Assembly (NCBI GenBank): GCA_903813345.2 | Contig: CAIIXF020000007.1 | Span: 35,122,538 to 35,186,537, forward strand | Length of the DNA stretch: 64,000 bases | Origin: Owenia fusiformis | Taxonomy: Eukaryota; Annelida; Polychaeta; Sabellida; Oweniidae | Reading direction: 5' to 3' | Shown here: positions 17,857 to 58,000 of the stretch, one piece after another | Position numbering within the stretch: the stretch's first letter is position 1 | Layout of the letters: every line of letters begins with the position of its first letter | The notes under the pieces: model-generated | Databases searched by the model: none | What the model was told of the DNA's origin: nothing | What the model saw: only the letters and a program-made list of their open reading frames with translations | Made by a program: the position numbers and the translations under genes

Positions 17857-20800
17857 TTAGCACTGATGGCTGGCTGAAGGAATGTTAGATTCCTGGTGTC
17901 CATTTTGTCTGACATTGTTTGTTGTGTAATAAGCACCAAATGACGTCACGCCACAATGTTGAGATGGCCCATATGTAAGTCCACGACCACTATGATGAGA
18001 TTCCTCTCTATGATGTTGGACAGCCATGTTTGTAGCATGAGAGGGCGGGGTTACATGATTCAATGGCCTTGGCAAATTTAGTTTAGTTATTGAGTTTAAG
18101 GTCTTGGTACTAGAACTTAGACCAGATAATCCTCCATGTGACTTTGTAGCCATTGCTACGGTTTTCAGTTTTGATGCCATCGATGCTAATCCTTGACCAT
18201 TTCTCATAGAGGCTATTGTTTTTGTTGTTGGCGCAGTTTTCCTCTCTGCAGCTTTGGTACTCATTACTGAGGAGACACCAAAGGTTGTAGGTGCAAGGCT
18301 TGGAGGCCTTGGAGGGGAAGAAACTACTTCAGTGAGCTTGGAGGCAGCACAGGCTACTGCAGCCTGCCTGGCATCTTCTGCACTAACAACTACATCTGGT
18401 TCTTTAGAGCATGGTACTTTTGTGATGACACTTTTATGGTTATTCACTTGGGAAGATGTCTCTAAGCCATTGGTGGCGTGGCTGATAGGGGTGCCTTCTG
18501 TTGTTGGAGAAGATATATCTTTACTAGTAGCTGTTGTTTCTGGTGTGTCTGTAGTTTTCGGCAAAGTGGCAGAATCTCCATTTGATGTTGAAGAGCGTGT
18601 TGGTGTAGCGACGCTAGTAGATGTCTCTTGACTCAATTTACGACGTTTGATGCCTCCCTCTGGAATCTCATATATACAGTAGAACAACCTCAATGGACCT
18701 CGCTGAAAAAGAATAAATAAAAATATATTAGACAACTATTACAATCTCTGACGGCTCTTTTTAAATGTCACCCCATAAGCAATCAAATAATACACCATTT
18801 GTAAATTATTTAACTTATAAATTCATATATTTATGTTTATGGTTTGATGATATGTGGTTATCCTTAAACTATTGAATATTGATTTTATGGTTCAACAATA
18901 TGTAATACCCTACTACTGCATAGACTACGTACCCTCCTCCAAGAGTAGATATATGCTATGTCCATTAAAGTGTAATCATCACTTAGGGGTTCATCAGTTT
19001 TAAACAACACAATCTAAAGAAACAAGGAACATATATATAAATTCTAATAATATAGCTTGGCAGATAAAGTTTAATGAGTTAAGGATACAATATTTTGAAA
19101 AGACATGGACACAAAGGTTTTATCAGTAAATTTGGATTTGTGAGTAAATAATATATTCTCCAAATGTTTGGACTACACTCTCTGACAGCCAGTTTCATAA
19201 TTATCCTTTGTGATCGGCTGTGAACAGTCCAATTAATTGGAGTAGGATAACCATGTAACCTTGACGAGATTAAAATTTTTAAGACGATAACAGATGTGCC
19301 AAGGTGACAGGTCTATGAGAAAGTACTACTGTTTTGTTATGTTAAATATCTCTCTAAGAGGGATGCTATATGGCTTACATTGTGAGATGGTAACAGGCTA
19401 AATTTCATCCTGATAAACTTCTTGATATGGTAGATGGACATGGCAGCAGGGCATAACAAATACCTCTTCTCTGGCACCTTGGAAAGCAATGAACAACAAT
19501 ATTTAGAAACATATTGGGTCAATATGACCTGCCTTAATATGTGTACAAAGTGTGTATGTTGGCTTTAGGCTATATCTGCTAATGGTCTCATATGAGGAGT
19601 TTTAACTCTTATATGCACATACCTCTGCGTTAGAATATACAGTGTACATGTGTTTATTTAAATATTTATTTATTTTGGTGATACTGATGCTATTTCATAC
19701 CATTTTGTTAGTATCCCCACCACCCTTAGTGCATTTTTCAGTAGGTGTGTCTTCACTTTCATCTGGAGGCCTTCCACTGAAAAACAAATGCATGTCATAG
19801 TTAATATGTTTATACTATACATGTAAATATAATTTACTTCAGTTTGTAATCATATGTCAATCATATAATTACTCAGTAATCATATAGTTACTCAGTGTAC
19901 CCATGTTTGTATGAATTTTTCTGGGTGTATATATGTGTGTATTTAAAATGATGCTTCAAATTCATGTTTTTGTTATGTTTTATCCTTTTTCATAATGCAG
20001 TAAGAATAAATTCCCATGATGTATCTGAATCTCTCTCTCTAATCTTGAATACTATGTCTCAGATATATATTACACATTGTCATCAGTATTAATATTATTA
20101 GTGAGCAATAAAGAAAAGGGGAATTGTCAGCTTCAAAGAAATTTACACTGCAGTCATCATTGCTATGATTATAGTGAATGAAATTAATGGCCCATATAGA
20201 CATAAAAGGAATTGCCTATGGCCACTTTGATACCTTTAAATGTTTCTTCATATTCAATTATATGGCATATTATTTTAAAATTAATTCTTATTCTGAATTA
20301 TTGCTACAATGTGTATTAGTTTAACAGCATATGCACATGCAGACTAGTCTCATTTAGATTAATTGAGACTTCAGTACTCCACCCACTATGAGCAATACTC
20401 TGCATTTCAGCAAATATACAAATATTGATTAGGATAATATGGTTCTACTACTATGGTTCCATTTTCTGATGACTTTTGTGAAGAAACTGTCTAATTAAGA
20501 AAGAATGTCTTTTCCAATCAATATTCACATTGACTCTGAGCATCTTTGGGAGTGGAAATCTGATGACATGCAATGTTACACCATCTTGAAGAATGAGAAA
20601 GAGATTCCTTCAGATTATAGCAAGATTAGAGAATCTCGCCTTTTTAACACCATTCAGTCAATATGCTGAATGGACATATTAAAAGGAAGATTATGGATTT
20701 TTCTGATCAGATTAATGGATATACTGTCTATCAACCACAGACATAAAGGATAATATCCTATTATAAAGATTATCAACAGTATTAAAGAAACATTGAACAA

Positions 20801-36766: not shown

Positions 36767-38716
36767 CTAACTTTTAATTTCCACTACAGGTCGAGTGAAG
36801 AAATTGACAATGAATGCAAGACCCTCTGATATGGCACCAGTTATAGCATCATCACCCGAATTGTCATCACTTGACAGATTTACATTACAACTTATACATT
36901 CTATTGACTTGAGGTTTAATACGGGTGTCGCTCCACCTAATCCACTTTTCAATTTACCAACAAAACTGACCTCGTCACCTGGGTTTAGTTTGAACATGAC
37001 ATCCCTGAAATCATCTAGAGCAAACAGAACTACATCTTGTAATGTGTCATGTGGGTTACTGTCATCCTTAGACATTGATATTACTAACTTAAAGACATAT
37101 TCGTCGTGTGATCTCACATGACATGGGCCGTTTTGGCCTATCCAAAACCCCTTTGTCTCCCCAAACTGAGGATGATTTGCTGTGAGGTCAAATTCTGGTT
37201 GCTGTGCTGGGATTTCAGATTCTGTTTCACCCTCTTCTTCTTCGGGTGCATCTTTATCATTACTTTGTGCATTGTTAGAGCCTTCATCATCTGACTGCGC
37301 CTTTACTTCAGGGTCTTCCTCGTGTGTTTGATCTTGCTCAAACTTATCAAACTTTTCGCCATACATACACGACACCCATTCACCAACTCCCGATGGTAAT
37401 ATGTCCACAAACCGTTGAACATAATTGTTTGTACTATTTACAGAAACACTCTTGATTGTACCTGTCCACCTGACTCTAAGGTTCCTGAAATGACCACATT
37501 GAACCTGGGTCTGAACCATATTGGTGCTCTCCCATGCTCTAGGCCCACAGAAATGTTCATACTGATTCCAACTAAGAGGCTGAATGTCTTCCTTCTCGAC
37601 AGATGGCGTGGTGGCAAGTAGCAATAACAATGTAAAAACACAACCGCTTACAAGTCTGAGACCAATCCGGGCTCTTTTGGACATATTTTTGAGATTGATG
37701 AAATCTGTTGTGAAACCCATTTCTGACCACAGAGTGAAAACAACTGGGAGAGACATGAATATGACTGTACATACGAGCTGCAAAAATGATGCAGAGATCA
37801 AGAGTTTCAACACAAAGAATACGAGACCAATGAGACTGACAACGACAAACACTGGCAAAAACAACAAAAACACAGGCCAACCAAAAGCACCTCTGAACAT
37901 TCCATTCCAACTGGAACTGGCGTAGAATGTGATACCAATCTGCAGCCATAGAAACCCAACCAGTTGAGGTAACATTACATTATAAAAACCACGACCTGAA
38001 TCCGAAACAGCCATCCTGTACAATAAAATTGGGACGAACAAATACAACAATGAAGGTATACCCATGTTAAATGTCACCGCCTCGCCCAGTTGTATACTAA
38101 TGAGATCCCCTGTAAGGAACCAGACTATGGAATCGAGTACTGGAATGTCTGGGAAGTTCCTAAAAGCGGGAGACAACGCAGACACAAGATTACACAACAT
38201 GAACATATGTACATTTGTGTCATGGGGAGCCAGAAATGCGAATGCTGCAATTGAAAGCACAAGTCCAACAACTGAGAACTCTGAGCATGGTATCCAGGCT
38301 CTATCACAAAATCCCAATGATACTATAGTTATGAGGCATGCATATAAAAACGTCCAGTATGGTTTAGTTGTATATACAGCATATGCGTTTGTGGCTTTCT
38401 GTAGATCAATATCCCTGTTTTGTCTCTTCAAAATGTTCAACCACACTTCGACGTCGTGGATTTTGCGTTTATTGATGAACATCTGTAGTGACACAATCAC
38501 CATGACAATGAACGAGATGAAGAAAACAAACAATGGTAGCACCATCATGAATGAACCCATTGTCTGTAGGGCTAATGTCACGAGGAATAGCAGGAATATT
38601 AGATACATCTGTTGTATAGGGAAGATTATCATCAACCATTCGATACCTTCCGAGGCCACTATCTCTGTGATGGTACTCCACGTATATCCACATGTCTTCA
38701 TAGGATGCTTGTACAA
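36767..38716 (-). CDS. WFS1: Wolframin terminal exon: membrane domain and lumenal OB-like domain
   Basis: As in vertebrates, the whole membrane and lumenal part lies in one large last exon (649 codons plus stop). The acceptor TATTTCAG precedes TTG at 38716, an internal leucine codon and not a start. The lumenal domain has CGPRAWESTNM, GEWVSCMYGE, PCHVRSHDEYVFKL and IECISCNVNLSS, all matching human counterparts. Between GEKF and the PCHV block sits an acidic insertion (EEDPEVKAQSDDEGSN through APEEEEGETESE) of about 45 residues, larger than the human loop. Confidence 0.95.
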   Translation of the reverse strand: MYKHPMKTCGYTWSTITEIVASEGIEWLMIIFPIQQMYLIFLLFLVTLALQTMGSFMMVLPLFVFFISFIVMVIVSLQMFINKRKIHDVEVWLNILKRQNRDIDLQKATNAYAVYTTKPYWTFLYACLITIVSLGFCDRAWIPCSEFSVVGLVLSIAAFAFLAPHDTNVHMFMLCNLVSALSPAFRNFPDIPVLDSIVWFLTGDLISIQLGEAVTFNMGIPSLLYLFVPILLYRMAVSDSGRGFYNVMLPQLVGFLWLQIGITFYASSSWNGMFRGAFGWPVFLLFLPVFVVVSLIGLVFFVLKLLISASFLQLVCTVIFMSLPVVFTLWSEMGFTTDFINLKNMSKRARIGLRLVSGCVFTLLLLLATTPSVEKEDIQPLSWNQYEHFCGPRAWESTNMVQTQVQCGHFRNLRVRWTGTIKSVSVNSTNNYVQRFVDILPSGVGEWVSCMYGEKFDKFEQDQTHEEDPEVKAQSDDEGSNNAQSNDKDAPEEEEGETESEIPAQQPEFDLTANHPQFGETKGFWIGQNGPCHVRSHDEYVFKLVISMSKDDSNPHDTLQDVVLFALDDFRDVMFKLNPGDEVSFVGKLKSGLGGATPVLNLKSIECISCNVNLSSDDNSGDDAITGAISEGLAFIVNFFTRPVVEIKS

Positions 38717-41700
38717 CTGAAATATCAGATATTTTAATGATATTGTTTATTTTCAGATAGTTGGTATATCAACATGCATCAATTTAAATATACTCATTTA
38801 ATTGTGAAGGTAACGGAATTATAATTTATAGTACTCGCCATTTTTTAAATTATTGAAAGAAAGTTTCTCGTTCAAGTAGAAATAATCTGGAATTGAACTG
38901 AAAATGACATCAACATTGTTGAAACGATTGAAATACTAAAAACAGACCTAAAGCATGCATTTTTAACTGTGATAAGTAAAATGATATATTATATATTTAG
39001 TAGTTTCAATTTTTAGTAACTTTTTCAAGTTACATAATTATGATTTAGACAACCCAATTGACCATCACCTTCAGAGTTGTATTTCATAAATGAAACAATT
39101 TATTTCATTCACCCATGTAATAGTTTATAGATTTTGTATGGCACAAGCACACTTTAATTTTCAATGCGGGACTATTGCACACCAATGAAGTCTGCACACC
39201 AATGAAGTCTACATGTGTCGCCTAACTATTCTAGGGGTTGGCAACTCAATAAATAAACAATAAATGATACAATTTAAAGCTTGACTCTATTCTCCGTCTT
39301 CTTTCTCTTTCTCTTTCTAGCTATTCTCTACATTATCTATTCACACTTTGACCCCATGATGTAAGCATCTGGTTTAAAATTTAAAAGCTCGCAGTCGGAC
39401 ATAACCATATATGATATAGGTGATGGGCCCGGTGATGGGTTACCATATACGGATTATACCTGAATCGGTAATTATTCCAACGCCATCTATTGATCGAAAT
39501 GAACAATTATAAAATAGTTGTACCTGATAGAAGGTTGCATAGATTATAATGATAAACAATATCAATCATTTTAATAACCGATGAGACAATATACGTCAAC
39601 CTGGATGCTATTCAGGTAACACGGACAATTTGCCATGCATGTATTATTAGATTGAATCTCAATAAAAATTCATTGCCCTCTCTCAGTTTATAGAATATTC
39701 AAATGTGTCATCAGAAGATGTAATGTTTGTGATTAATTAAAAGATGATGAATAATTGTTACCTTTTCCCATAAACTTGATCTACTGTAGGAGTCATCCTC
39801 TACATCTGATGCTAAACGTTTTCCACTAACACCTCTTAGTCTTCTTGACACAAGCTCCACGAACTCCCCCTCACTTAACTCAGGTTTGTCCTTCAGGTGA
39901 TCTGTAATACAATTTACGATAGGAGATTATTCCTACATTCCAGTAAAACATGGAAGATGTTATATATGATTACCAGAGCTTAAGAAATGAAGTATATAGA
40001 CAACTTAAATACAAATTCCTTGAACATGTCAAAATATCACCACTTGGTAAATGCGGAATGGAAATTGTTACTTTAAAAAATTGTGTTTCAGACGTCAAAA
40101 GCCATACGCTACTGACGGTCACCAAAACAGAAGTTGTTATGAATGATAGAACCTCAACTTGAAATTGATCAACCTTGATTGGAATAAATTAATTAATCAA
40201 GATATCTTACTCTTCATCAATGTTTGTTCTTCCTCGTTATCAGTAATTTTAGCAACAAGTTCTTCCGTTGACAATTTCTCTTCGCCCTCTCTTGCTGTTC
40301 GTTTAAATAAGTCACCAGCCGTTCTTCTTATAAGTTTATCCATCTCTGGGGTCTCCACGCAGAATTTAACATCAGCCATATTATCCTGGGTTATCCCTAC
40401 AAATGCATATGTTTTGACACCCATTTTATTTTACATATGAGGTGTTCTAGAATGTTTTGAGAATACAGGTCTAACTAACTCAGATTCGTGCTCGTGGGCT
40501 TATTTATGACATACTGTGTTTACTTTTTGTACATAAATGTTAACTTTTAGAAAGACCGAGTGTAGCGTTCACTGTTTTGTATGAATATGTTGTCTCGTGA
40601 ATTCATAAATCAAAAAATACAGACATAATGTCATGACTCGTTGTTCACTTTGAATTAAACAAGTAAAAATATTTATCGTGAGAAAATCCCCAGGTGTAAC
40701 CTACTAAGGGCAATTAATTGATGAAAAAACTCTCGTTAAAATGGATTCATACATATAAATGTATATTCCCATTTAATGCAAATATTTTCAAACTCTAGTT
40801 TCTATATATCAATCCACCATGAATGTTTGTGTGACAAACTTTACCACACACTTACTTTACCCTACAATTATGAAAACAAATACGAACAAATTATATACAT
40901 CATCATCTTACCTATGTTATTCTGAAGACACTGTTGTAATGCTTTCGTAGCCTCGCTGTGACCATGCATTGATGCGAGGATCAACCAATGCACAGCAATT
41001 GCTCCATCCTGTTGTGGAGATGCGCCTGATCGAGCCTTATTCAGGTAGTACTCCCCAACTATGTTCTGATGCTGGACAGATCCTTTTTGAGCCTTGGCAA
41101 AGTTCTGTATCAGTTCAGGATCATCTGTGAATGAAAAAAATATAATTACAATCGTGTCATACCCTAAATTACTATCATTGTTTTTGTATCATTCTCTGTA
41201 CTAAAACTCTGAATTGCTATCATTGTTTTTGTATCATTCTCTGTACTAAAATACTGACCGGTTGAATGTTCCATATTTGGAGCACTAGTGTTGGGATATT
41301 TTTCAATTTATCGTGTACAGAGAATAGCTGTGTGATGTACAAATACTACTTTATTGCAGATCAAAGTTTAATTGATAAAACTTATGAATATGTGTACACA
41401 AGATAAGTTTAAATTAAAAATTACTCATCAAATATCAAATATAACTATACTTCAATGTGCTTGAATTTTATCAGGATATTTAAATTTATGATATTTAGTA
41501 ACTTACCACAAGGCGGTGATATAGTGAGCTGTTTGTCTGAAGAGCTCAATTCAGCTTGAAGTGGATTGTCCTTTCTAGCTTCAAACGTTTCGTGCATTAC
41601 ATCATCGGTCATTGTTCTTTGCTCGACTAGAATTTCGTTTTTGTCTTCCATCGGTAACTGTTGTTGCACATCGACTGTAATGTCGGGAATGTGTACAAGT

Positions 41701-44700
41701 GACTCAGTGCATATGTCACTTAGTGATCTCACGCTTGGCTCCACTGGTGAAGAAGGCACGCTGTCAACAACAGCGAAGAATATATCCGATTCTGTTGAAT
41801 TAGACTCTAAATCTTTTGGAGATGAATGATCATTAGTAGATGAGAAACATATGTTTACTTCAGGGCTAGATGTACGTTGGATATTGTCCGTGTTGTTAAA
41901 TGGATCATCTGTATGGTCTTCGTCTTCAATATCCTTTGTACCATAATTAACAATATGTGTCACTATATCATCCTCATCTGATGAAACAATTTCCCACTGA
42001 TCCTCAATAGATTTTTTATCATTTCCATTTTTATCTCCATCATTGGTACCGGAGTATGGTATTACATCTTGTAAGTTGGATAGAATTTGAGCAACAGTGT
42101 CTTCTCGGCTTGTTGACGATCCTCTACTTAGAGATGGCTTCGTTTGTGGTTCATCATCCAACGAATATTGTGCACCAGTCTTATCATTCGGTGATTTTTC
42201 GTTTGGTGCAACGTTATCATATACAAGTACAATATCATTACTGCTCTCATCAAGGCTTTCTTTCTGCTCTTCTATCTCTCCTGTTTCATTGGCTTGATCT
42301 GGCATTACAGTCCCACTGAGAACATCATAAATTAAATGCTCTCTTTGTTCGGATATTGGGTTCATTTTTGCCTGGTCAATGTCATTAACATCTATTCCGT
42401 CAGATTCATGAAGAATATCAACTGATGTCGATGAGGTTTTTCTGTTGTCTGCTTTTGTGACATCTGGCTGTTGTTTTATTCCATCAGGATCTCTCTTTCC
42501 TGTTTCATCCCTAGCTTCACCTACATCGAACTGGTCTCTGAACTGACCTAAAATGTGTCTTACTTCATCATCTGTAGCATGAAGCTGCTCTTTGATTGTA
42601 TATTCACTTATTTCATTGTTCACATTTATAGGTTTCATCGGAGAAATGGATTTGTCTTTACCCGCTGGGAAAAATGGTTTGATTGGTAAATCATGTGGAG
42701 TAGACGTTGATATTGGTTTGTCGTTATTTACATCAGCGTTAGGAGAGGATTGTTTAGGTTCGATAGCGTGCGTCTGGGATACAGATGAACTAGGCAGCGT
42801 AGTTTTTCTGTCCAACGGTGATGAAGGTTGAGTTGTTGAAATTGTTTCAGATGATCTCTCTGTGAATCTATACCTAGATGGGACATCCTGCTGAAGAGAA
42901 GTGTCTACATTACGGGAAAGAGGGTCATCGCTTGTTGGAAATAACGGTGGAGCTTTGTCGTAAAATCTCGAAGACTGGTCAGAATGAACAGAACTAGGAG
43001 GCGATAGTGACGCTGGAGTCAAACCACTTCTGTTTTCGAGTTTTATGTCCGGAGTGATAACTTTCTCCAAATTCGCTTCAAAATTTTCCAAAAGTTGTTC
43101 TTGGGATTTTCGTCGTTGTTTTAACATCTCACGCATCTTGGAGAAATAATCCGCATTCTTTTCAACTGCAGGCTCAGCTGTTTCGTCCCCTCTGGTGAAA
43201 GGTGATTTGTAAATATACGCATCCGTTGGTTTTTCTGTATGGGACAGGGCAACTACTGACTGAGTAGGAATTCGAACTGTCTTGTCAACCGGAATGTCTT
43301 CAGGTTCTTGAAAATCTCGAGGGCTGATTTGAAGCTCATTTTTAGTATCAGTAAGACTCTCCTCAGTTGCATGATCTTGTTGTTGTGTGAGGACCGGAAT
43401 TGTGTCAGGTTCCTTTAAAGTCGAGTCCTCTTGTGCATTCACTCTGTCAGATGCCTTGCTGGTTTTTCTTTTAATTTCACGTATTTTATCAGACTTAGAA
43501 TAGTAATTCGATATTCTCTCAGTTGGATCAACGTTTAGTGCCTCGATTGTTTTATCATCCGGTTCCTGTTTGATGCTTCGAGCAACGTCAGGCTCTTGTA
43601 AGGCTTTGTTATCTTCTATATTATTGGCAATATATGTAGCTGCTTCGTTAACCTTCGCCATTACTTCTGATTCAATCCTATCTGTGAATGTTTCTACCTC
43701 TGTCTTATCTCCTGCAGTGGCATCACCTTCAATTCTCTGTTGGGATTCAAAGGACATTTCTTCATAAATGTGCGTGTCTTCATCGATGTCCTTGCCAGGA
43801 ACCCCCATGGGTATGTACAAGTCCTCTTCATCGACCTGGATTATGTCCCTTTCACCATTCTCAATAATATCTCCGATTACTTGCAGCATATCCATTGTAT
43901 CAGGTACATTATGATTCAACTCAAGTCCACTGTTAAAAGGCTCATGATTTTCATATATTGGCGTTTTGTTATCATCTGTGGTGGCCGGAAATGTTTGTTC
44001 TTCAGTCGATTGTTTAGTTTTCTTTTCTTTTTCTTCGTGATTTTCATGAAGGGGACTTTCCGGAGACTTGGCTTCCTTGTTATGCATTAAAACACAAGCA
44101 TCTGACTCAGTCTCATCTTTATCTATTTTTATTTCATCCTGATTTTGGTCTTTGCTACTCTGTTCTTCATTTTCTTTTAGTTTATTCCCAGTCAACGGAT
44201 GCACTTCCCGTGTTGTTGTTTTAGTTTCTATGACATGTTTTATGTGTGTTTTGGTGGGGGAACTTTGATCTTTAACTGCATCGGGTTTCTCTACAATCAT
44301 AACGTGTGGTGATTGCCCATCCTTTACTTCAGGCTTTGATTGATTTGTATCGTCAGGGATAACATTACTTGGTGAAGTTGGGACTGACGACTTCGTGGTT
44401 ACTTCTTTCTTGAGGTCCTCCTTTGGCTGCATGGCGATGATTGCATCAAGGTCAGTTTCCATCATAACGGGGACTGGAGGAGCAGGAAACGCCACACTCT
44501 GCTCTGTGATTTTTCGTATTTCTTTCTTAAAAACACGTTTCTTTTCAGTCTTTGAATGATAATTTGACATTCTTTCTGTTGGATCTAGACTTTCCTCTAT
44601 TGGTGGGATGTCGACTGTGATCTGGTGATTTTCGTTTTCATCAACCATATCGACATGTGCTTCTTTTGTTGGAGCTTGTTCTTTCTGAATAGTTTGGTCC

Positions 44701-46505
44701 TCTATTTTCACACTTGTTTCATTGATGTATTCAGTTGGTTGAGCAACTACATTAATATTCTCTTGAGTAACTGCAGTTTCAATTTGTTTTACAATTGTTT
44801 CCTGCAGCGTCAGTCCAGGCTCATGTTGTTGCAGAGCGACTGCTTCTTCTATGTTACTTATTGGTCGTTCCTCCATCGCTTCTTCATAGTTCCCAGAATA
44901 CCTAGGCCTATATGTAATAAACCCTTCAGATGGCAGGGAATCTTCTTCATTCCAATCCCGTCTAGGTGGCATATCTTCTTGTTTCACAGCTGGCTGTATT
45001 ACTTCACCATCGGCATTCAAATTAGGTGTTTCTTGTTGACTTATTGCTCCTTCTTTTTCGGTAAATACGCCATCGGATTCGTCTTGCTTTTTGATAGAGC
45101 TAGTTCTTTTCGGTGGAGGTGGGGGACCAGCTGATTGATGAACCTTGGCGACATGTACTATTCTTGCAGGAGTGTCAGCTGGAGTGTCACCTTCCAAAGT
45201 AAGAACGGGTGAAGTAGGGGGATCGGGAGGTTTGTTTGCGGGTTTTGATATCTTGTTGGGAGTGACTTTAACTGGAGATGGAGGAGTCTCTTTCTGTATG
45301 TCATCTGGCTTAACCTCAATACTCGACTTTCTGTCTATATCTGTATCACTCTGCCTGTTCCTCATGGCTTTCCTTTTGGCTCTCGGCGACAGTCCTCGTT
45401 TAATGCCCTTCACGATTGTATTCAGGCCTTCTTTCAAGCTGTTGCTTCTAGATAGTCGTTCTCTACCTCGAGGGAGTTGAGGCATAGATTGAGCGGGACT
45501 CATGCCTTCAGAGGCAGAGTCTGATTGAATATTAGGAGTAGATTTATACAGGGCTGAATCACGTTTACCTAACTTGCTTACATCCGGTTGCGACTCGTAG
45601 AATACTTTAGGGTGCGGGGATGTTTTGGTCTCAAATGTTCTATACAAACCACCGGGCAATTCATTATTTTCATCTTCGTGAGAAAAACTGTCAAAGTCTC
45701 TATCGATTACTTCGACTGGAGCCGACCTTCTCTTGGGTTTCGGAGACATTCCTCTTTTGATATCTTTCCATGTTTTAGATATCGTTTTGCTGAAGCTGTT
45801 CTTGCGTTCACGCTTAGATTTCTTATCTAAATATTGGGGCTCTGATGAACCAGACTTCAAACCAGGAGATCCTGTTTGAACAGCAGTGTCGTCAAGTGCT
45901 CTTGGTTTGGGGATGGTTTCACTACTGGTAGATGCCTGGATGTTAGGGGTTGATTTGTAATGTTCTTTAGCTGGCATACTGATTGTTTCAGTCATGCCAT
46001 ATTCAAAGCTTGAATCAGGATCTATTGATGATTTTGAGCTTATGGAATCATCGTCTCGCAGATTGCGTTTTCTTCGAGGTTTTGGAGACATTCCCCTCTT
46101 TAAATCTTTCCAAGCAGCGGACAGACGTTGACCAAAACTTCCACTTCTTGCCCTACCGTTTCTATCAAGCTCTGGTTCGGAGGTGCTTGGTGTAAGCTTA
46201 TTTTTGCTTCTGAACTTCGACGAGGATTCTCTTCTCATTTGAGGCGTATCGGAAGCTGCTAAACTAGGGGTAGATTGTAAGCTATCTGACGATATAGAGG
46301 AATCAGGATTATCTTGGGTTTCAAGTTCGGATAAAGGGGCCCTCCCTTGTTTTTTACGTTTCTTGCTTCCGGGTGAAACACTTCTCTTAACCTGACTCCA
46401 GGCATTGGACACACCCTCTCGCATACTTCTCCTCCCACGTTGCCTCTCGGGTGCTTTTGGAACTTCATCCTTGGACGCTTTTCCTTTCCCTTTAACGTTA
46501 TCCAT
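36767..46505 (-). CDS. WFS1: Wolframin with a giant disordered N-terminal extension (5 exons, 2,495 aa)
   Basis: Wolframin is an ER multi-pass membrane protein that controls ER calcium, the unfolded protein response and secretory cargo export. Coding exons: 46505-41507, 41124-40912, 40396-40211, 39901-39762, 38716-36767. Phases chain exactly to 7488 bp ending in TAG/TAA-type stop at 36767. Residues 1-1667 are a Ser/Glu/Lys-rich extension. About 1668-1740 are the Sel1-like repeat region, followed by GITQDN matching human GITSEN. Next comes the EF-hand-like stretch (SEGEFVELVSRRLRG). Residues from 1847 hold about nine hydrophobic membrane segments with the DRAWIPCSEFSVV signature. The lumenal C-terminal OB-like domain starts near 2233 (CGPRAWESTNM) and ends in the conserved C-x-x-C region. 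Human wolframin is about 890 aa, and only the last 830 residues here align with it. Orthology is certain. That the long first exon belongs to the same mRNA is inferred from the in-phase G|AT junction, the strong donor and the absence of another first exon. Confidence 0.9.
39177..39210. repeat. Perfect 17-bp tandem duplication
   Basis: GCACACCAATGAAGTCT occurs twice head to tail in the fourth wolframin intron. Confidence 0.9.
39762..39901 (-). CDS. WFS1: Wolframin exon 4: EF-hand-like segment
   Basis: The acceptor is TATTACAG|ATCACC and the donor GGGAAAAG|GTAACA. It encodes LSEGEFVELVSRRLRGVSGK, aligning with human ALDDFVEITKKYAKGV, described for the family as a divergent EF hand. Acidic calcium-ligand spacing is not obvious here. 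Confidence 0.85.
40211..40396 (-). CDS. WFS1: Wolframin exon 3
   Basis: The acceptor is TTTGTAG|GGATAACC and the donor ATGAAGA|GTAAG. It encodes GITQDNMADVKFCVETPEMD and the following helix, aligning with human [20 protein letters not shown]. An in-frame ATG upstream at 40424 lies in the intron and is not the start. Confidence 0.88.
40912..41124 (-). CDS. WFS1: Wolframin exon 2: Sel1-like repeat region
   Basis: The acceptor is ATTCACAG|ATGATCC and the donor ATAG|GTAAG. The exon encodes 71 codons, including ELIQNFAKAQKGSVQHQNIV and AIAVHWLILASMHGHSEATK. These match the human wolframin segment around AGDPKAQTEVGKHYLQL and AVDWLVLAAKQGRREAVK. Helical hairpins of this type are Sel1-like, a protein-binding fold. 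Confidence 0.9.
41167..41256. repeat. 45-bp tandem duplication in wolframin intron 1
   Basis: Two adjacent copies begin AATT(A/G)CTATCATTG and share TATCATTCTCTGTACTAAAA, differing at only two or three positions. This is a recent duplication inside the 382-bp intron joining the giant first exon to the Sel1 exon. Confidence 0.9.
41507..46505 (-). CDS. WFS1: Single 5-kb first coding exon: repeat-containing, intrinsically disordered N-terminal region of wolframin
   Basis: The exon starts at ACCATGGATAAC, a strong Kozak context, about 83 bp below a TATATAAA. It stays open for 1666 codons to donor TGTG|GTAAGT at 41507. The composition (Ser, Glu, Asp, Lys, Pro; almost no Cys or Trp; no membrane segment or signal peptide) marks it as disordered. 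Visible elements: four basic repeats at residues about 27-52, 121-147, 236-260 and 354-379 with core WKDLKRGMSPKPRRK; the exact octamer YKSTPNIQ at 183-190 and 320-327; a GPPPPPKR site near 460; D-P-T-E-R-(M/I)-S-N-Y motifs near 639 and 990; and a basic, possibly coiled segment (DYFSKMREMLKQRRKSQEQ) near 1115. If the donor is ignored, the frame reads 19 more codons to a stop at 41445, so intron retention would give a soluble 1,686-aa protein. I recognise no named domain. Wolframin topology puts this region in the cytosol. Confidence 0.8.
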
Positions 46506-46587
46506 GGTTTCAAGTGCTACTTATCCATTCCTGTGTTAATGTTTGCCTGCACATTGAGGAGTCTATCAAGTTAAAGTGCCCTGTGTG

Positions 46588-46595
46588 TTTATATA
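46588..46595 (-). promoter_or_regulatory. WFS1: TATA box of the wolframin gene
   Basis: TATATAAA on the minus strand lies 83 bp upstream of the ATG at 46505. A start about 30 bp downstream, near 46560 in the CTCCTCAATG context, gives a 5' UTR of roughly 55 nt with no intron. This supports the 5-kb exon being the true first exon. Confidence 0.5.
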
Positions 46596-46619
46596 CAGAT
46601 TCAACACTCCTCAAACACT

Positions 46620-48750
46620 TTATTTCAGACACACATAAATGCAAACTTACATTTTTTATTTCACTATGATGTTTTGAACGCCTTTGACCCAGTTATAAAG
46701 CGGCAAACCCGTTGTTTACTAATTTACCGTGCCAATAAATATTTCGTCCTTGTGAATGTCAACTCAGTATCATCGTATATTTATCGCAGTAGTATTCCCA
46801 TGAAAAGATTTTCGAGATGCAGATTCACGAACGCGGTGTATTTACAATTTAGTGGTTATTTTCCTGCAGGCACTTATATTCTGTCAATGCATATCATTTC
46901 ATGTACTTTTGATTTGTCTTTTTAAGCTAAAACTCGGTATTTTCGATATTCACATAGGTTTTATGATAAATAGGTTTATCCGTAGTTAAATAGATGTTTG
47001 CCAGTGTTTACATTGGTATGCGTTCACTAAATAGGCTACGGGCCCGTTGACACCTGTGTCCGCCTCCCTACAGGTACTTGATTAAGTTAATCCAAATTCC
47101 AAAGCCTACCTACGCTATTGTCAATTCTATCTGGACGCTTCTTTATTAGGTAAAACCCTTTTTATTAGTTAAACTGAATTGGTTAATGAAATAAGTCATA
47201 GATCCGTGGTGTATGTGGGTTTGCATCTACTATTGACTCTCTTTAGATAACATTGGTTTGTTCAATATTTCTTTATCAGTGTTCATACTTGAGACGAGTA
47301 TCCGACGCTTAGCACTGCAAGATGTCAAGTTAATATTTGACAACATGGATCGTCACCGAATTAAAATTTTACAAATCACTTCCATGTACGTACATGTGTA
47401 GAGTATAATATGTACATGTACCTTCTCATGTTACACTAGTATATTGTGATTGTATAGAATGACTAATAGAATAAACCATGCTGCATATTAAATTTGATTA
47501 TTAAATATTGTAATGAAAACATTCATTTGTGTATTTGTTTGTAATGCATGTATGTTAACAGCTGTTGTGTCTATAGTTGGCAGGGTACTATATAAGCAGC
47601 CACTAAATTACCACCATACCATACAATGCATATTATACGATATCGGAGTTATTGCAACTCGTTCAAGCTGACCCCATAATACAAATGAGACGAACATTAT
47701 TCCAATAGATTTCACTCATTTATTTATATTTTCTTTTAAAATAGAATGTATTCACAATTCAATGGCAGTTTACCACTTTATCAGTGCATTCTATTTCTGA
47801 ACAAAGTCAGTATTCACAAACTGTAGAGATCCTTTTGAAAATACATTAAAAGCATACAAAAAATACATTATGCTTTGGGCCCTCTGCACGTTATATACCA
47901 CGATGTACTCAAAAGCAGTATAGAAATGGAGTGATTTTATCTAATTGAAATGACTGAAGACCATGATGATTGTGGCCAGGAAATTAGAGATATGCATTTC
48001 AATAGCACTTAAATAACTTCATTTCCAACCTTGAAAATACATTCAGATTTTGGAATATGTTTTGAAAGCAGGGTGTGAATAAATAATACATATGTTCATC
48101 ATAAAGGTATTACTTTTAAATCAAAAAGGAAATTACTCAAAGTACTGTAATTTCAAGGTAATTCATATAAATCTCACTAAAACGATATGACACATTCATT
48201 CCGATATTTTATAGCCAACCCATTTATGCATCTATAAAAATGTATTAATTTTATTTACATTGGAGAATGTTGCATTTGTATTGTATACCGTGTACATCCT
48301 TGATTTGGGTTAACATATGTTAGCTTTGATCACTCATTACTATCATTAGCCAAAATGTATATCAACATATTTTACTATATACAAATGATGTGATTTTGTA
48401 ACATGTGATTTTGTAATCAGCCCTTAAAGCTGTTTCCCAAATTTGTTGATATCAAAGAGCTGAAGAAATGAACAATAAAACATAGAGGATTTTTAAAATG
48501 AATTTGAAATGAGTGTATGTTATAAATGTCTTCTATGTACACTACATGTTACAAATATACAATTCTTCTCCTACATATGTACTTTACATATGCACTGTAC
48601 TTAACATATTACATATGTACAGTTCTTTTAAGTGTCCTTGACCTTATTCTTGAAGGTTATGTTACTTAGCAGCCTACATCTTTTAGAAACATGTTTACAT
48701 TCAAAGTTTGTATCTTAGCTACATGGTCGCCATTTCCACAAATTTTGACA
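46620..48750. other. WFS1-SARNP intergenic region
   Basis: About 2.1 kb of AT-rich DNA upstream of the wolframin promoter and downstream of SARNP. No gene or clear repeat recognised. Confidence 0.5.
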
Positions 48751-48755
48751 CACAG

Positions 48756-48790
48756 GGTGAGCCAAAAATGTCACTTTCTATCAAAAAACA
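48756..48790 (+). mobile_element. Solitary CAGGGTGAGCC transposon terminus
   Basis: CAGGGTGAGCCAAAAATG matches the ends of the 6516-7058 element, but no inverted partner was found in the next kilobase. It is probably a remnant. Confidence 0.45.
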
Positions 48791-48806
48791 TTAACTTTCT
48801 AATTTT

Positions 48807-48812
48807 TTTATT
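48807..48812 (-). terminator. SARNP: Candidate SARNP polyadenylation signal AATAAA
   Basis: AATAAA on the minus strand lies about 260 bp past the SARNP stop. A solitary transposon terminus (CAGGGTGAGCC at 48756) lies just beyond it. Confidence 0.3.
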
Positions 48813-49069
48813 GGAAATTTTTTTTTTTTAATAAAAGTAGAAGCAAAAATAAATAAAATGTAGCGTTAATGGGTCATGTCATATTCTTTAATATTGCTCT
48901 TCTTAAATCCAAATCCAGTCTATTTTTTAATTCACTGGACATCAATTGTGCATCTGGTCAGATTATTTACATAGTTTAACAATGTTCTGTCATTATCCAA
49001 GATAATGCACTGTAGGCTGCTGGGATAAGGGAGAGTTGAACTTCAACATCAGATTCAGCATGTCCTTTA

Positions 49070-52000
49070 CTATAAGCCAAACCTTTCAGCTCTTTTCTGT
49101 TTCTTTATCTACAATAAAAGATGGCAGTGTAGTATTATCATAGAGCTCTGCTACGAGTACGAGCACTGTATAAATGTTCTAGTACTTATTTCAATAACCC
49201 TTGACTTTCCATCATATATTATAAGGTTGAAAGAGCACATAATTTGACTAATGAACTTCATCTAGGATCCAAACACTTGTAATTGACAGCAAATCTAAAA
49301 TATGTTCTACTCTAATCTACCAACCCCAATCTCAAACAAAAACTATAATTCCCTTTATCTTTAATCAATGTCATATCAATCCCCTTAATTTTCTTACAAT
49401 GTGCTCAATATGAGAGAGATGATGCCTTGACATATCTGATTCATTCAACTTAATTTCACTTTTCCAATGATGTACAACTTGACAACATGTTGGAAAGTCT
49501 ATTTGATATCATGAGTAGTATGATTAAGATTGACAACCTGAAAAGACTGGTAAAACTAATGGGTTCCAGGAAACTGGGCATGTAAGACATGGCTATTTGG
49601 AAGAGCACTCGCCTGGATAGTAGGCAGTTGTGGGTTTGATTCCAATGGGGTGGACTTTTAAACAATGGCCCTTAGCACAGGGTTTCATTAGCTATAAAGA
49701 AGAGGAACTGAATATTCTGTATTTTAAAATGAAGTTGGCTGTGAGCACCCTGTATTCTATGAAGAAATGGACTGAACACCCTGTATTTTACTAAGGATTT
49801 AGTAATAGTAAGTCAACTTACTGCTATTTCATCTGCACTGTTAGTGTTTGATTTTGTATTTGGACCTGTTATCACTGTACCAAAACGTTCTTTCCTCTTC
49901 AGAATCTTATCAGCTGTTTCAAGCTTAAATATAAATATAAATTAATTTAATAATATATATTCACCTAACAAAGTGTATGAAACTTTGGTTGCCTCAATTA
50001 CATCATTTTTGTTCTTAGCAATAGAATTGGAAAAAGTGCCAAAAAAGTACAGATAAATTCAGATACTGTCCCCTAAACATGTAGTTTTATTTGTGGTATC
50101 ATAAACAGTAAAGTATAGTTTGTACTGCTTACCTTTGAAAGTGATGAGGACACGGTCACACCAAATCTCTCTGCTCTAGATTTGAGTTTTTGAATATCGG
50201 CATCCTGAAAACCATGGAGACAAGCCTATTGTTAAAATATTTGAAGGAAACATATTACAAAATTCTGCATTTCTATTATGCTCATTAAGACGGAGAGATT
50301 AACAAGAAATGTAATCAATTAAGATAAAACAAGGCATTGACATGCAAAATGTCACCACTAACCATTTGTTACAGACACTGACCACCAAACACCAACTGCC
50401 AGATGCTGTCCAAAAAATGTTGGAGACAGTTACAATATGTCCCCACTTCTGGCTATATAGCTTCAAGAAATGTGTCATGGTATTGACATAGAATATATCA
50501 ACAAGTGCACCGAATAAAGCAGTGGGAAAATACTTGAAAACAATTGCAAGCAAAATAAGAATTTTTCACAGTGAAAATATTTACTTTTTCTTATTAAAAT
50601 GAAGGAGTTTTAGAAAGTAAAAAATTTAATTTTTATGATGTTTCCAAATATTTGCTATTTTGTGTTTTCTAAAGGCTGTGATTTGCATTTTGTCATAATG
50701 GGTTGATGCTTTTTTATAACTATAACTATAACAAATATTTTAACTGTCAGTAGAAAGTAAATCATCAAACATCAAATTACACTAATGAGTGAATATATTT
50801 ATTAAATACACACTATCTGTGATAATGAATCCTTGTAATACATATCAGATCAAAATATTAATCTCATGTCATAATAATGAAATGTAAATAAGACAGTAAT
50901 GATATAAATGATCAATAAAATACCATTTACCGTAATACTGATATAGCTTTTCATAAAAATTGCATTCCGATAGATTTATTCTACAATGATGAACTGGCAA
51001 TGCTTTAGAACAGCATGCATAACTGAATAGTTAAAAAACCACCTCCTTGAAAGATTATATACAGAGCGATGTTTTCACTAGAATTTCTCACAACAGACTA
51101 AATAAATTAAAACAACAGGCAAAATTAATGGAAATCATAAATTTAATATGGAAAAGCTGAAAACGTCCCAAACAGGCGATTTTGTGAAAACAACCGGTGA
51201 AAATCGCCTGTTGCCTGCTGCTGAAACCACTGCAGAGTGAACACAAGTTGAAAAAAAAAAAATGAGATGGCCATGGGATAATGCAAGTTACCTTGGGGAC
51301 GGTACCACTGGTAGGTGAGGTTGTTGGAGATGTAACTGGAAGACCAAATCTCTCAGCGCGTGACTTTAACTTCTCATCGCTGGAAACCTAGATAGAAAAA
51401 AAAAAAAGATAAAAAAAAGTTAGAAAAGATTGAAACAGTTTTAGCACAAATGGCTAGCAGGATTTTTCCACTCAGGATATTTGGGTATTAAGTTCAGAAT
51501 TCTCATTTTGGCTGTTCCAGACCAGAAATCCCCATACCTGGTCAAATAATTTCAATTTTATGAACTTCTCAATTAATATCAGGATACAAAATTTTTAATT
51601 ATCAGCTAGACACTGGAAATGAGATGTTGGCTGGGAAGATCATTTATATACATGGATGCTTGTGTCTGACTAGTTTGTGAATTCTTTCAGTTTATCAAAA
51701 TATAATTGATGGTTCACTCACCTTAGATGCAGACTGTGGACTCTTTACTGGAAGTCCAAATCTAGAAAAAATAAAAAATCATGTTTACAGTTATATATAT
51801 TCTTCTCTTAATTTCTGGGAAAGCACAGGTTAATATTATGAAAGCCCCAAATTTTCCATCCTCCTAAGCAGGTGTCCAGAATCTGTACCTCCTTCTTCCC
51901 CCTGCTAAAACCAATTTGGAAGCGCCCGATTAAACTGAATCACGTGATCTTATTATGTGCAATGACTTATACATGATTTCTGTCGACAGCCAATCAGATT

Positions 52001-55000
52001 GCGAGTTCTTAATCGGGGAAATGCTTACTGCTTATCGCAGGGGGTAAAGAAAGAATATATTCTGGATTTTGAAGCCCTGTGATCGGAGGATGCAAATTTT
52101 CAAAAAATTGTAAGAACCAATTTTTACCTTATTACATTTCTGAAGAATTTTTTGACTATTTGTATATTACACTAGTATGCAAACTCAAAGTAATAGGCGC
52201 ATGTATCTCATAATCCATAAATACAAGGTCAAATACCTTTCTGCTCTCTGTAGCTTTTTATCAGTATCTGTAGGAGGGAGTCCAAATTTCTGTGCCCTGA
52301 GTTTCTGCTTCTGAAATCCAAAAATATAAAACTTTTCAATTTTGGTCTAAATAGTTTTCAAACATATATCCCTTTACTGATATGATATTATTTTAAGATG
52401 AAACATGATAAAACATTTCAGTGTCTTTCTTTTTTTGATATTAAATGTCTTGTAAAATGCATTGGGTTTTTCTTCAATGCTACAAGCGGGGTGATAAATA
52501 TATGTAATATTATGTAACTCAGTGGGTTATGAAGCATGTATCTTACCTCAGCATCTGTTAGTTCTGCAGTTGCCTTTAGTTTTACAGCTTTGTGTTCTTC
52601 TGTGCTTCTAAAATACACATTGAAATACATGTCAAATATAAACAATTTCCTGGCATCTGTGATGCTTATTCCACTTCATTTATGTAAATAAATTTTCAAT
52701 TTCAAAAGCTACAAGTGTGTCCAATTTTACCAAATATAACAAAAGCCCACAGACAAACAGTTTTAAAGAGACTGACAACCACATTTCGAGAGATCAACCA
52801 AATGAATGTCTTGCCAGGTGAACTAGCTGCTACAAACTAATACTTACATTTATATCTGCGTCCTTTACACATTGTCAAAATTATCTATCCAACAATTAAT
52901 ATAATAGGCTTTGTAAGAAAAATGTTACATTTTTGCCTGCTATTTTGCAAGATTGACCACTATTACTTAATCAAGGCAAATCTATTACAGTGTCTATTAA
53001 CTTACGGAGATCCTGGTTCAACGTTTGGTTTAGCTTCAGTAGGTTGATCTGATACCACTGGAGTTTCAGTAACAGTCTCATCATCTCCTTTCAACAACTC
53101 TTCTTCATCTGTAACACAAATATGATATACCTGAACATCGTTAATACAAGCATATACCAGGTCGTTCAATAAGTTCACTGAAAAATACTCTCATTTCAAA
53201 GATTCTTGATATTTTCTCATGAAAGTTTCACACAATGTATAACAAATGCTTTCTGATTGATTCTTAAAATATCAGCATCTCTAATTTGATTGGTCAAAAA
53301 TAAGGGTTACTTTGGTAACTTGCTTTATGGGTAGGTGGGGCACTTTTTGGTCAAATTAGAGATGCTGATATCTAAAGAATCAATCAGAAAGTATATTTTA
53401 TTCATTGTGTGAAAATCAAAAATCATTGAAATGAGAGCATTTTTCCGTGAACCTGTTGAACGACCTGGTACTTTCGCAAACATGTCAACAACACAGTATT
53501 AAAGAGAGTAATGAAAATGTATGGTATGACATACATCATTAACATCACCAGGAGTATAACCCATTATCACATAACCATTATCACATAACAAGGCTTAATA
53601 GTCATGGTATTACCAACATGATAATTTAAATCAGTTCCATAAATTGTTACATTGGTAAGGTTTTTGTCTGCTAATTCAAAATCATACCTATGAACAATGT
53701 ATGTTCAAGGTATAAATTCTAAATCAGCCCAACCATTATTTAGGTCAGATAACATAAGAATCTTGTGTGTACTCCCCTCCCCTTTTTGCCACTGAGAAAG
53801 TGGGTGTTGAATGACTGCTTCAGAGTTTCACCTTCACAATGTGGTGCAAAGTTTCACCTTCACAATGTGGTGCAGAATGGTAAGTCCGATCCCGATGTCA
53901 TTTGTTTGGAACTTCTAAATATTTTTTCAATTCAAAGGTGATACTCTCAAAGATGTTCATTTTCCATAAAGTTCATGGTAACATGACTTTGAAATATTCT
54001 TTTTTGAAGTATTTCCATTTACAGAGGTGTTTAATTTTACTTTTTTTACTGTTTCTATGACATTTCATGTTATTATTTAGACACTGGATAATATTTGGAA
54101 TTCCATGAAAATCAATGCTACAATTAAAGAGATACATACCTACACCTTCATCTAATATGGCATCATCTTTTACAGTGTCTGGGGCTGTATCAGCTGAAAG
54201 TGAAAAGTAAAATCAATTTCTTTGATTGTTTTCTTTTTTCTTTATAAGTTATTATTACGACCACAAATTGGCATGTACAGGGTGTCCCGAAAGTATGGGG
54301 CCCCCCTATGCAGACATATACCAATGTCTCCCTAGTATGTGTCATATATCATTTTAAAGCTTATCCAAAGTTACATTGATTTGCCAAGTATCATGGTTCA
54401 ACTCACAAATGGTAAAAAGTTACAGGCATTATACTTTACATTATACTACCATACTTTCGGGACACCCTGTATTGTTGTGCAGTCCTTGTTAAAAACAATG
54501 TCTAAGTTTGCATTACTTTTATCATCAGCTATCTAGTGTCAAGAATGTAAATGTTATAGCGTTACAAAGAATTGGAGTATTCACCTTTCCCCAAAGTCCA
54601 AAGTGTACTCATTTGACCGCTGCGCTGATTGGACGATGAAAATCAATGACGTCAAAGCAGGGCACATTTCGCGCCAAAACTTCAATTTGTATTAGATCGC
54701 CGATTGAGTAAAATAGATCTCATTATAAAATGATAACAAAACTAAGTGAAATATATTTTTCTGACTATTTTGTCTTAAGCTATGTCTTAAATACACCATC
54801 AGGTAAATCAAACCATAGAAATAATTGTGATACGAGTGCTCATCTTTGAACAAAGTGAATCCAACTACGCAAACCAAAGATTGACAGTCATTCAAACAAT
54901 AAGCCTGTATGGATTAGGAATATACATTTATCATGATTATTCAATTAAATAGTTCATTATGTTTCTATTAAAAAGTATATGAAGAACAGTTTTAAATGTC

Positions 55001-58000
55001 AGAGTCCACTTGCATTTTTCTCATCGGGTTGCCCAAATAATTTGCGATTGCTCATGGTCAAATTATATATTGAAGTAAATAATATTCATCATACTGTACT
55101 AGTTTGCATTTTAACTGCAATTCAAAGCTTAATTACAGGAAATTCTTTAAAAATCATGCAGTTTTTTATCATTCTGAACACTTTTCGTATGATTTTTTTG
55201 CCAAAACTGTCAAAAAGCTACCCCTTAGTAAAACCGCTCCCCCAGGTAAATCCTGACTACGGGCTAAGTGAATTGCCAGAGTTTCTCTCTTGTAGGTCTA
55301 CGTCCAAAATCCTGATAGTTCTCTAAAAAGATCGATATTTATAAGAACGCCCATGGGCTTTTCAAGAGATAAATCTCTTCAAATAGACGATCGTGGGTAA
55401 AACAAGCAACTCTGGTACATTGTCTCAAAGCATACATGAACGGCTTTAACATTGTTCAATGAAATTAGTCATCACACATGTAACCATTGTCAAATTCTTT
55501 GCATGGCAGACATAAAAGTAACATTTTCATGTGGTATAATAGTTGGCTGAACGTAAGTGAAAATAACGCACCGTTGGCCCAAATTTGAGAGTCGAATACT
55601 TTTTCTTCAAGGTTAAGTCGTATCCCCTTTTCACCCCATGAGAAAATATTACACGAACTTAAGATTACCATGAGATGTTGACATTTTGACAGATGAGAAC
55701 TAAACATGGGGTTTTGTACAATCGACGTAATTTGAAAATGTACAGGAAACATTGGACTCTTCACATTAATATTTCTCTATTTATTTGATTTCCCAGAACA
55801 ATATAAAGAAGGGGCAATAAAGACGTGAGTATAATTAATTCAATTCCATGACATTTATCATAAATATTATTACTACTCAACATAATTTGACAATAGAATT
55901 AACCCGTTTCTGTCACGATTCACATTGACTCCTAATGTGTTTAGATTTTCCCGCGAAAATCTGCCCTACTCTGACGTCAGAGATTTCAGATTTGCTAATT
56001 ATAATATTCATGAGCTGACTTTGGGGAAAGGTGAATACTTGGGGATTTACACAGTAAGCCCATATGTGCAAATTTGCCCTAGCTAACCTGGATTCCCAAT
56101 GTGCTCCTGTAGTCTTTCCACTAACTCTGTTTTGTTCCCTGAGAGGGGTAGGCCTCTTTCCTTCAATTCTTTTTTCAAGTCTGCAACCTAGAAACAAAAG
56201 AGTTTGACAGAGTCTATAGATATTAATTATTATAGTCATACAAAGCTATTTTACTTATACATTATAACAATGATGTGTTGATCTATCTGGCTTGTTTTTG
56301 ATATTGTTTTTATGACATGGATTTCCTGTATATTTCTGCATCTTTGACAGTTTTACAGTCATACTATCAATTATGTTATCAATATTTATCACATCTTCCC
56401 GAGAATATAATACTAAATGTCATTGGACATTTTTGTGACTTGTTTCCTTTCAAATGTGGCAAATATGTTTATGGATTTGTGGCGTTTAGATTTTAAGGTT
56501 ATGAATTATGTCCATTGGTCAGCCAGGTTCATTAAATGATATTACAGTAAAATCTGTCTCTAGTGGACACCCTACCTTCAAACATACTCTACTGATTTCA
56601 GTATAAATTACCCTTTCTGTAATGAACACCAACACTGAGCATTTATATCTTCGCATAAAATGTTAAATATACACAGCTTTTACTGTATATGACCTTGACA
56701 TCAAAGTATTAGTGAAAATGGAGCAAGTGCCTGTTTAACACTTCAAAAAATCAGATGAGAATAATCTACCAGGATTATAGAATCTTAAGAACGGGGGAAA
56801 ATGAGATGTACACTTCAGCCCTGGAGAAGAATAAATGAGAAATATGTTTTTTAAGCATGGACAGAGGTCATAAAAGTAATTTCGGAAAAATTTGAGTTCT
56901 TCAAATACTGTATGCCAGGTATATTTCGATGCTATTTATTTCGCAAAATTTGAGAAACTTCATTATTCTCTAAATCCTCAAGCTTTGTAAATTTAAGTAA
57001 CCTTAGACCCCCTGAACTTTTGACACAAACAATGGTTCAATTATGTACAGTAATCCTATCTACCCAATAGGGATGTCACAATTTCCCCATATTTTTCCGT
57101 CCCTCAGGACTTTGGTTTCGGGACGGGACAACCCTTGTGTACCGAAGATTTCGGTCCATGTTCAGAGTCTATTTCTCCTATATGACCACGCTGCATAGGC
57201 AAAACCGGAAATAGACGGAAAATGTAAGTTGTTGAACTGTTTTAAACTCATTAACTATTTTATTGGTTATGCCCCACCCGAATGTCCCGTCCCGAAATAG
57301 ATAATTCCCGTCCCATCCCAAAATAAAATAAATCAGCCCTTATTTGTTAAAGGCTATTTACAAACTTCCATCTTCAATCAGCATAGGTCGGGGAACATTG
57401 TATAAAAAATTGGGTCGAGTTCTGTATGATTGCACCCCACTGGCCCATAATATTTGTGTAATTCTGACCATGAGTAGGTATTTTATCCTAGAATTGTGAC
57501 TCCTCTTGACTTTACACAAACACAGGCTTTGCTGTAGATGTGTTTACCGTGAGTGAAATATATAAAATAATCTGATTGGTTTAGATCATTCGTGTGCATA
57601 ATCCCGCATGCGTGCCATCTGTGCCAGATATTTTTCTATTACTTTTTTCATTCCATGGGAATTTGTGTTTTACACGAGTTGCTTGAAACGAAAAAAGATA
57701 GCGGAAGGATAAATATTTAACAGGTAAACTCACATCGATATTTTAGAGATTTTGCCTATATTAGCAAAACTTTTGCTTTATTTGTGTATTCTATCCATGT
57801 AATAAGAGTCTTAGGCTTCTATTGGCGAATACGTTTCAGGAGGAACACTCAATTTATTTTGAAAAACCAATTCTTTTTTTATATGTTTAGCCTATAATTC
57901 TTTAGACTATATCCTCTAGTCTGACATTTTTTTGAAATTTGGAATGAAAATATTCAGACTATAGCCCACACATGTTAAAATTTGGGATTGAAAATTTATT

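Follow-up and report, generated by a model that had tools for sequence, protein, structure and literature searches.

A predicted 2,495-residue wolframin with an enlarged, mostly disordered first coding exon in the annelid Owenia fusiformis

Gene structure at the locus

The 64,000-nucleotide stretch of Owenia fusiformis DNA analysed here (contig CAIIXF020000007.1, positions 35,122,538 to 35,186,537; "the window") carries on its minus strand a wolframin (WFS1) gene of five coding exons, which join to 7,488 nucleotides (nt), that is 2,496 codons with a single, terminal stop, and predict a long wolframin product of 2,495 residues. Exon 1 (41507-46505) is the first coding exon and is recognised by its single open frame, its codon-position bias and its terminal donor GTAAGT; its 4,999 nt amount to 1,666 codons and one base and encode residues 1-1666 and base 1 of codon 1667. 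Intron 1 (41125-41506, 382 nt, phase 1) separates it from exon 2 (40912-41124), where the wolframin Sel1-like region begins (DDPELIQNFAKAQKG...) and which was placed by its splice sites, its frame and a Pfam WSLR match that starts inside it. The remainder of the Sel1-like region and the next cytosolic segment lie in exon 3 (40211-40396), the cytosolic segment preceding the membrane region in exon 4 (39762-39901), and the membrane region, cysteine-rich domain, OB-fold domain and stop in exon 5 (36767-38716). The intron phases are, in order, 1, 1, 1 and 0, and the first junction reads GTG/GTAAGT at the exon 1 donor and TTTTTCATTCACAG/AT at the exon 2 acceptor. The original prediction, that an exon at 41507-46505 is joined in frame to wolframin, was reproduced in its coordinates, phase and 2,496-codon total; the 1,667 residues that it gave for the first exon hold in size and frame, the exact figure being 1,666 codons plus one base. 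Compared with known wolframins, the predicted novelty is an enlarged first coding exon that would add 1,666 mostly disordered residues and make the product almost three times the usual size.

By their domain content exons 2-5, which alone encode a core of 829 residues, are wolframin, as had been predicted, because exon 5 matches the Pfam families WC-rich (E 6.8e-25) and WCOB (E 7.4e-21), both exceeding the cut-off, and WSLR (Wolframin Sel1-like repeat; E 5.1e-8, 33.5 bits, cut-off 27) is matched by the cytosolic piece after splicing. A simple hydropathy cut finds six separate hydrophobic segments in residues 1874-2219, the wolframin hallmark being nine transmembrane helices. At E up to 1, the Pfam search returned no EF-hand family between the Sel1 and membrane regions and the PDB sequence search no match for exon 5; the EF-hand-like region is divergent in other wolframins too (PMC7016017; this and the other papers given by PMC number are cited from parts of their text). 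The intron before exon 3 is phase 1 and lies within Gly1738, with D1742 four codons further, followed by N-M. Human WFS1 intron 4 falls after c.460, in phase 1 in codon 154 (PMC5363171), and the 158-ENE motif sits four codons past that intron (PMC8632972). The Gly1738 intron is probably common to the human gene (intron 4), and the gene model is therefore supported in that stretch. In this comparison the human letters between codon 154 and 158-ENE are assumed.

Exon 1 is open in one frame over all 1,666 codons, with 50 to 195 stops in each of the other five frames, and for a sequence composed of the same bases an open run this long has a probability of about 10^-46. Its GC content at the three codon positions is 51, 40 and 33 %. 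By a codon score for which wolframin exons 2-5 were the training set, the open frame of exon 1 has 0.106 versus 0.014 and -0.032 in the other frames, and it has the top score in eight of nine segments, another sense frame being slightly higher in segment 2. Open frame, GC by codon position and codon score bear out the earlier call of a coding exon, and by these measures exon 1 is a real one. It has no match in Pfam and no PDB sequence match at E up to 1, and nothing reached the gathering score in Rfam.

Limits of the first exon and alternative gene models

The donor at 41506 has the top score among the 210 GTs in the exon 1 open reading frame (ORF). Just 20 GTs score at least as high in the whole window on both strands (128,000 positions), and therefore about 0.01 would be expected in the final 62 bases of this frame. 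The ORF reads on beyond the donor through 20 codons (GKLLNIINLNILIKFKHIEV) and meets a stop at 41447-41445. This 20-residue tail contains 11 hydrophobic residues (I, L, V, F, M, W, C), against a mean of 4.1 and a maximum of 9 in 1,647 exon 1 windows, and one D/E/P/S/T/Q residue, against a mean of 10.0 and a minimum of 2; it differs in composition from all exon 1 windows, and thus the shift in protein character coincides with the donor rather than with the stop. The consensus donor GTAAGT in phase 1, as first described, is present, but phase agreement is weak by itself, because of the 16 GTs in this ORF with a score of at least 5, 12 are phase 1 in any case. Exon 2 contains no in-frame ATG from the nearest upstream in-frame stop to its acceptor, and therefore some upstream exon must provide the start codon. 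Taken together, these features argue strongly for splicing of exon 1 to exon 2, and the in-frame junction between them is the best candidate for a single gene model. It is quite probable that the principal transcript, or at least a major one, starts at 46505 and joins 41507 to 41124 to give the long protein.

Several observations weigh against this model. The matrix behind the donor scores is not trained on this species. The codon score of the tail is -0.07, and 7.4 % of exon 1 windows are equally low, so that this measure gives no sharp separation at the donor. GTs at 46156 and 46414, inside exon 1, rank second and third and are also phase 1, and splicing from them could cut the extension to 116 or 30 residues. 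The donor of a short candidate first exon within intron 1 (8.3, described below) scores higher than the donors of exon 3 (5.0) and exon 4 (6.5). On the 5' side, two minus-strand ATGs (46554 and 46528) lie between a TATA motif and the start at 46505. The predicted 2,495 residues also depart from the 853 of Drosophila wfs1 and the 890 of human wolframin (PMC5794194), a total length near 850-890 being typical of wolframin but not defining.

As to the start itself, the TATA box originally noted ahead of it is there, at 46595 (TATAWAWR), but the motif occurs 49 times on the minus strand of the window; TATA and AATAAA motifs carry little weight either way, because both are common in this AT-rich window. 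The ATGs at 46554 and 46528 open frames of 14 and 3 codons in the presumed exon 1 leader and may damp translation of exon 1. Other first exons further upstream (46506-56000, donor score at least 7) were also considered; there are five paths using three donors, and none is preferable.

The start codon that exon 2 needs might also be supplied from within intron 1. A 16-nt candidate first exon at 41259-41274 on the minus strand (ATGGAACATTCAACCG/GTCAGT) encodes MEHST and ends in phase 1 like exon 1, and is the sole path in the intron from an ATG to a phase 1 donor scoring at least 3. On this account the gene would have two first exons: exon 1 would lead to the long form, then a tissue-specific isoform, and the mini-exon, served by another promoter or by a leader exon that is not translated, to a wolframin of about 834 residues, which is close to the fly and human lengths (PMC5794194). 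Among 670 other 381-nt windows, 32 contain a path as good, so the chance of such a coincidence is about 5 %, which is not rare; merely 232 bases lie between exon 1 and the mini-exon, and the promoter was examined by motif counts only. We regard this short isoform, which is absent from the original prediction, as the main rival to the in-frame junction and as a serious, if unlikely, possibility.

The 20 codons by which the ORF runs on past the donor could instead belong to a gene of its own, without introns and encoding 1,686 residues, that stops at 41447-41445 and is polyadenylated after the AATAAA at 41355, downstream of the stop, with wolframin starting elsewhere. The minus strand of the window has 92 AATAAA motifs in all (1.4 per kb), about 0.5 being expected by chance in a stretch the size of intron 1, and the break in composition comes at the donor rather than the stop. 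Such a gene would also leave wolframin with the mini-exon or an undiscovered exon; the neighbouring gene upstream on the minus strand encodes a SAP domain. The reading of a stand-alone gene that ends at 41445 is the less likely one, and we consider it very unlikely. A different doubt concerns the role of the extension: it might be spliced in as filler under no constraint, a first exon of low complexity that grows fast and has no role of its own, while wolframin functions as usual. Conservation is poor in the first coding exons of wolframins, and exon 1 is without Pfam or PDB match, both of which would fit filler; on the other side, pairs of repeats in exon 1 retain their residues while their codons drift (see below). 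We judge filler to be quite unlikely.

Composition and repeats of the extension

Disorder was estimated from composition by a windowed, FoldIndex-type score, which is below 0 in 92.5 % of 1,616 exon 1 windows versus 25 % of 779 windows in the wolframin part, the latter including the membrane helices. Residues 1-420, folded without an alignment, have a mean predicted local distance difference test score (pLDDT) of 49.8, which agrees with disorder but is weak evidence for it. Composition thus supports the earlier description of exon 1 as disordered; it is incomplete, in that four amphipathic modules recur in the exon. The extension is also divided by charge into a basic head (residues 1-400; 83 K/R, 51 D/E, net +32) and an acidic stretch of 1,266 residues (401-1666; 136 K/R, 253 D/E, net -117).

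The four modules all lie in the head and are laid out as a 17-residue amphipathic helix, a Ser-Pro and a basic cluster. They occupy, on the minus strand, 46350-46427 (module 1, residues 27-52), 46062-46139 (module 2, residues 123-148), 45720-45797 (module 3, residues 237-262) and 45363-45440 (module 4, residues 356-381). Columns 2, 6, 10, 13 and 17 are hydrophobic in all four copies, as is one of the 48 other cells, and with this spacing the hydrophobic residues would fall on one face of a helix. The hydrophobic moments of the modules stand at the 97.3, 98.4, 99.8 and 99.6th percentiles of exon 1, and three of its five tryptophans are within modules (36, 132, 246). In the alignment-free model, which is of low overall confidence, helices at 33-39, 124-136, 228-250 and 353-369 overlap all four modules, that of module 1 in a region with an average pLDDT under 50, and a further helix is predicted at 374-387.

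Two other repeats are present on the same strand: YKSTPNIQ, at 45936-45959 (residues 183-190) and 45525-45548 (residues 320-327), and a repeat containing DPTER, at 44535-44588 (residues 640-657) and 43479-43532 (residues 992-1009). When exon 1 was compared with itself and with 30 shuffles, four of the seven listed pairs (scores 80, 68, 52 and 49) beat all shuffles, the top shuffled score being 47. The pairs scoring 46, 45 and 43 are within the shuffle range and include both links to module 4, which is recognised by the common hydrophobic columns and an IKRG.SP..KRK core.

The YKSTPNIQ copies are identical at 8/8 residues, yet six of the eight codons have changed silently, with two the same versus 3.4 expected. 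The DPTER copies share 12 of 18 residues, with 6 same codons versus 5.0 expected and mismatches at the three codon positions of 3, 1 and 9; modules 2 and 3 share 13 of 18, with 8 same codons versus 6.1 expected and mismatches of 4, 3 and 10. A weaker excess at the third position is seen in the other four module pairs (8/4/12, 9/7/12, 4/5/8 and 9/6/12). Pairs were chosen by protein similarity, which biases the count; the silent sites are about random, and this fits old repeats held at the protein level. A profile of the four modules gave three matches, the best at E 0.17, which were dismissed.

Relation to known systems and possible function

The predicted Owenia protein has in common with human and fly wolframin the Sel1-like, cysteine-rich and OB-fold domains and the intervening hydrophobic membrane region, and differs from them by 1,666 extra cytosolic residues from a single 5-kb first exon; the 158-ENE motif of human WFS1 is reduced to D-N-M. 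Among the matches listed in the literature, titles and abstract openings contain no description of a long N-terminal wolframin extension, and automatic gene models in databases may contain such a protein already. A search of viral contigs with exon 5 gave no match and one with exon 1 eight pattern matches, none confirmed; those of prokaryote genomes gave 2 and 11, none confirmed. Animals are not expected in either collection, and these searches are therefore silent on conservation.

Wolframin is a membrane protein of the endoplasmic reticulum (ER) with a cytosolic N terminus (PMC5363171), where a calmodulin-binding region partly coincides with the Sel1 region (PMC7016017). In mammals this N terminus is reported to bind SEC24, WFS1 being a SEC24-binding cargo receptor (PMC8632972), and is required for binding to IP3R1 (PMC12069674), so that an arm attached at this point would work through an interaction face that is already known. 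We propose that the extension could be a flexible cytosolic arm on ER membrane wolframin, in which several of the four modules of the head (1-400) would dock together on an acidic partner such as a phosphoinositide membrane, the microtubule lattice or calmodulin, and the acidic 1,266-residue linker would span the distance from there to the Sel1 region at the ER membrane. Docking might be switched by proline-directed phosphorylation beside the basic cluster, phosphorylation of the SP being a plausible off-switch. Docking, phosphorylation switch and tether are weak inferences, and the tether mechanism overall is possible but rather unlikely. The more specific picture of a giant ER-anchored tether is doubtful; in it the four-module head, carried on the acidic linker, would attach under phosphorylation control to the plasma membrane, to microtubules or to another organelle. 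A motif scan of the extension for SxIP, FFAT-like and PxIxIT motifs found none that would name the partner, which counts against the proposal; the whole protein has no FFAT-like motif and one S.IP, at 2346 in the C-terminal part of wolframin.

Long cytosolic arms with a basic end are known from ER contact-site tethers such as STIM1, with its polybasic tail, and the junctophilins. The Owenia protein would work in the same way, by an ER anchor, a flexible stretch and a basic amphipathic end able to bind an acidic surface, but the extension is not a member of either group; no domain is shared, and only the amphipathic and basic character is seen. As an alternative use the arm could be a COPII or IP3R scaffold. 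TANGO1 and Sec16 are COPII scaffolds or receptors. By analogy with these, coat proteins could collect on a long disordered arm, given the reported binding of WFS1 to SEC24 (PMC8632972), although a proline-rich COPII-binding region was not identified in the Owenia protein and its counterpart of the ENE motif is D-N-M.

If the tether exists, wolframin, which is tied to ER calcium and export, would itself be a contact-site organiser. The wolframin gene is broken in human Wolfram syndrome, and its molecular role is debated between calcium release, ER export and contact sites. A natural wolframin with a huge arm and docking modules would reveal which partner can be linked to its cytosolic face, and the shortness of the modules permits direct tests with peptides.

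Neighbouring features

Pieces of the SAP-domain gene lie directly upstream of wolframin, at 56187-49816 on the minus strand. The SAP domain itself (56187-56086) has a Pfam E of 5.4e-15, and the Tho1/MOS11 C-terminal domain is matched more weakly, at 50225-50076 (E 0.0005) and 51387-51091 (E 0.027), both under the Pfam cut-off; we take the gene to resemble SARNP most. The last piece that could be recognised stops at 49816, so that the wolframin promoter has about 3 kb of room. Elsewhere in the window, a 292-codon Ser/Thr/Pro-rich open frame with no Pfam match, at 17857-18735 on the minus strand, has a coding-like codon score.

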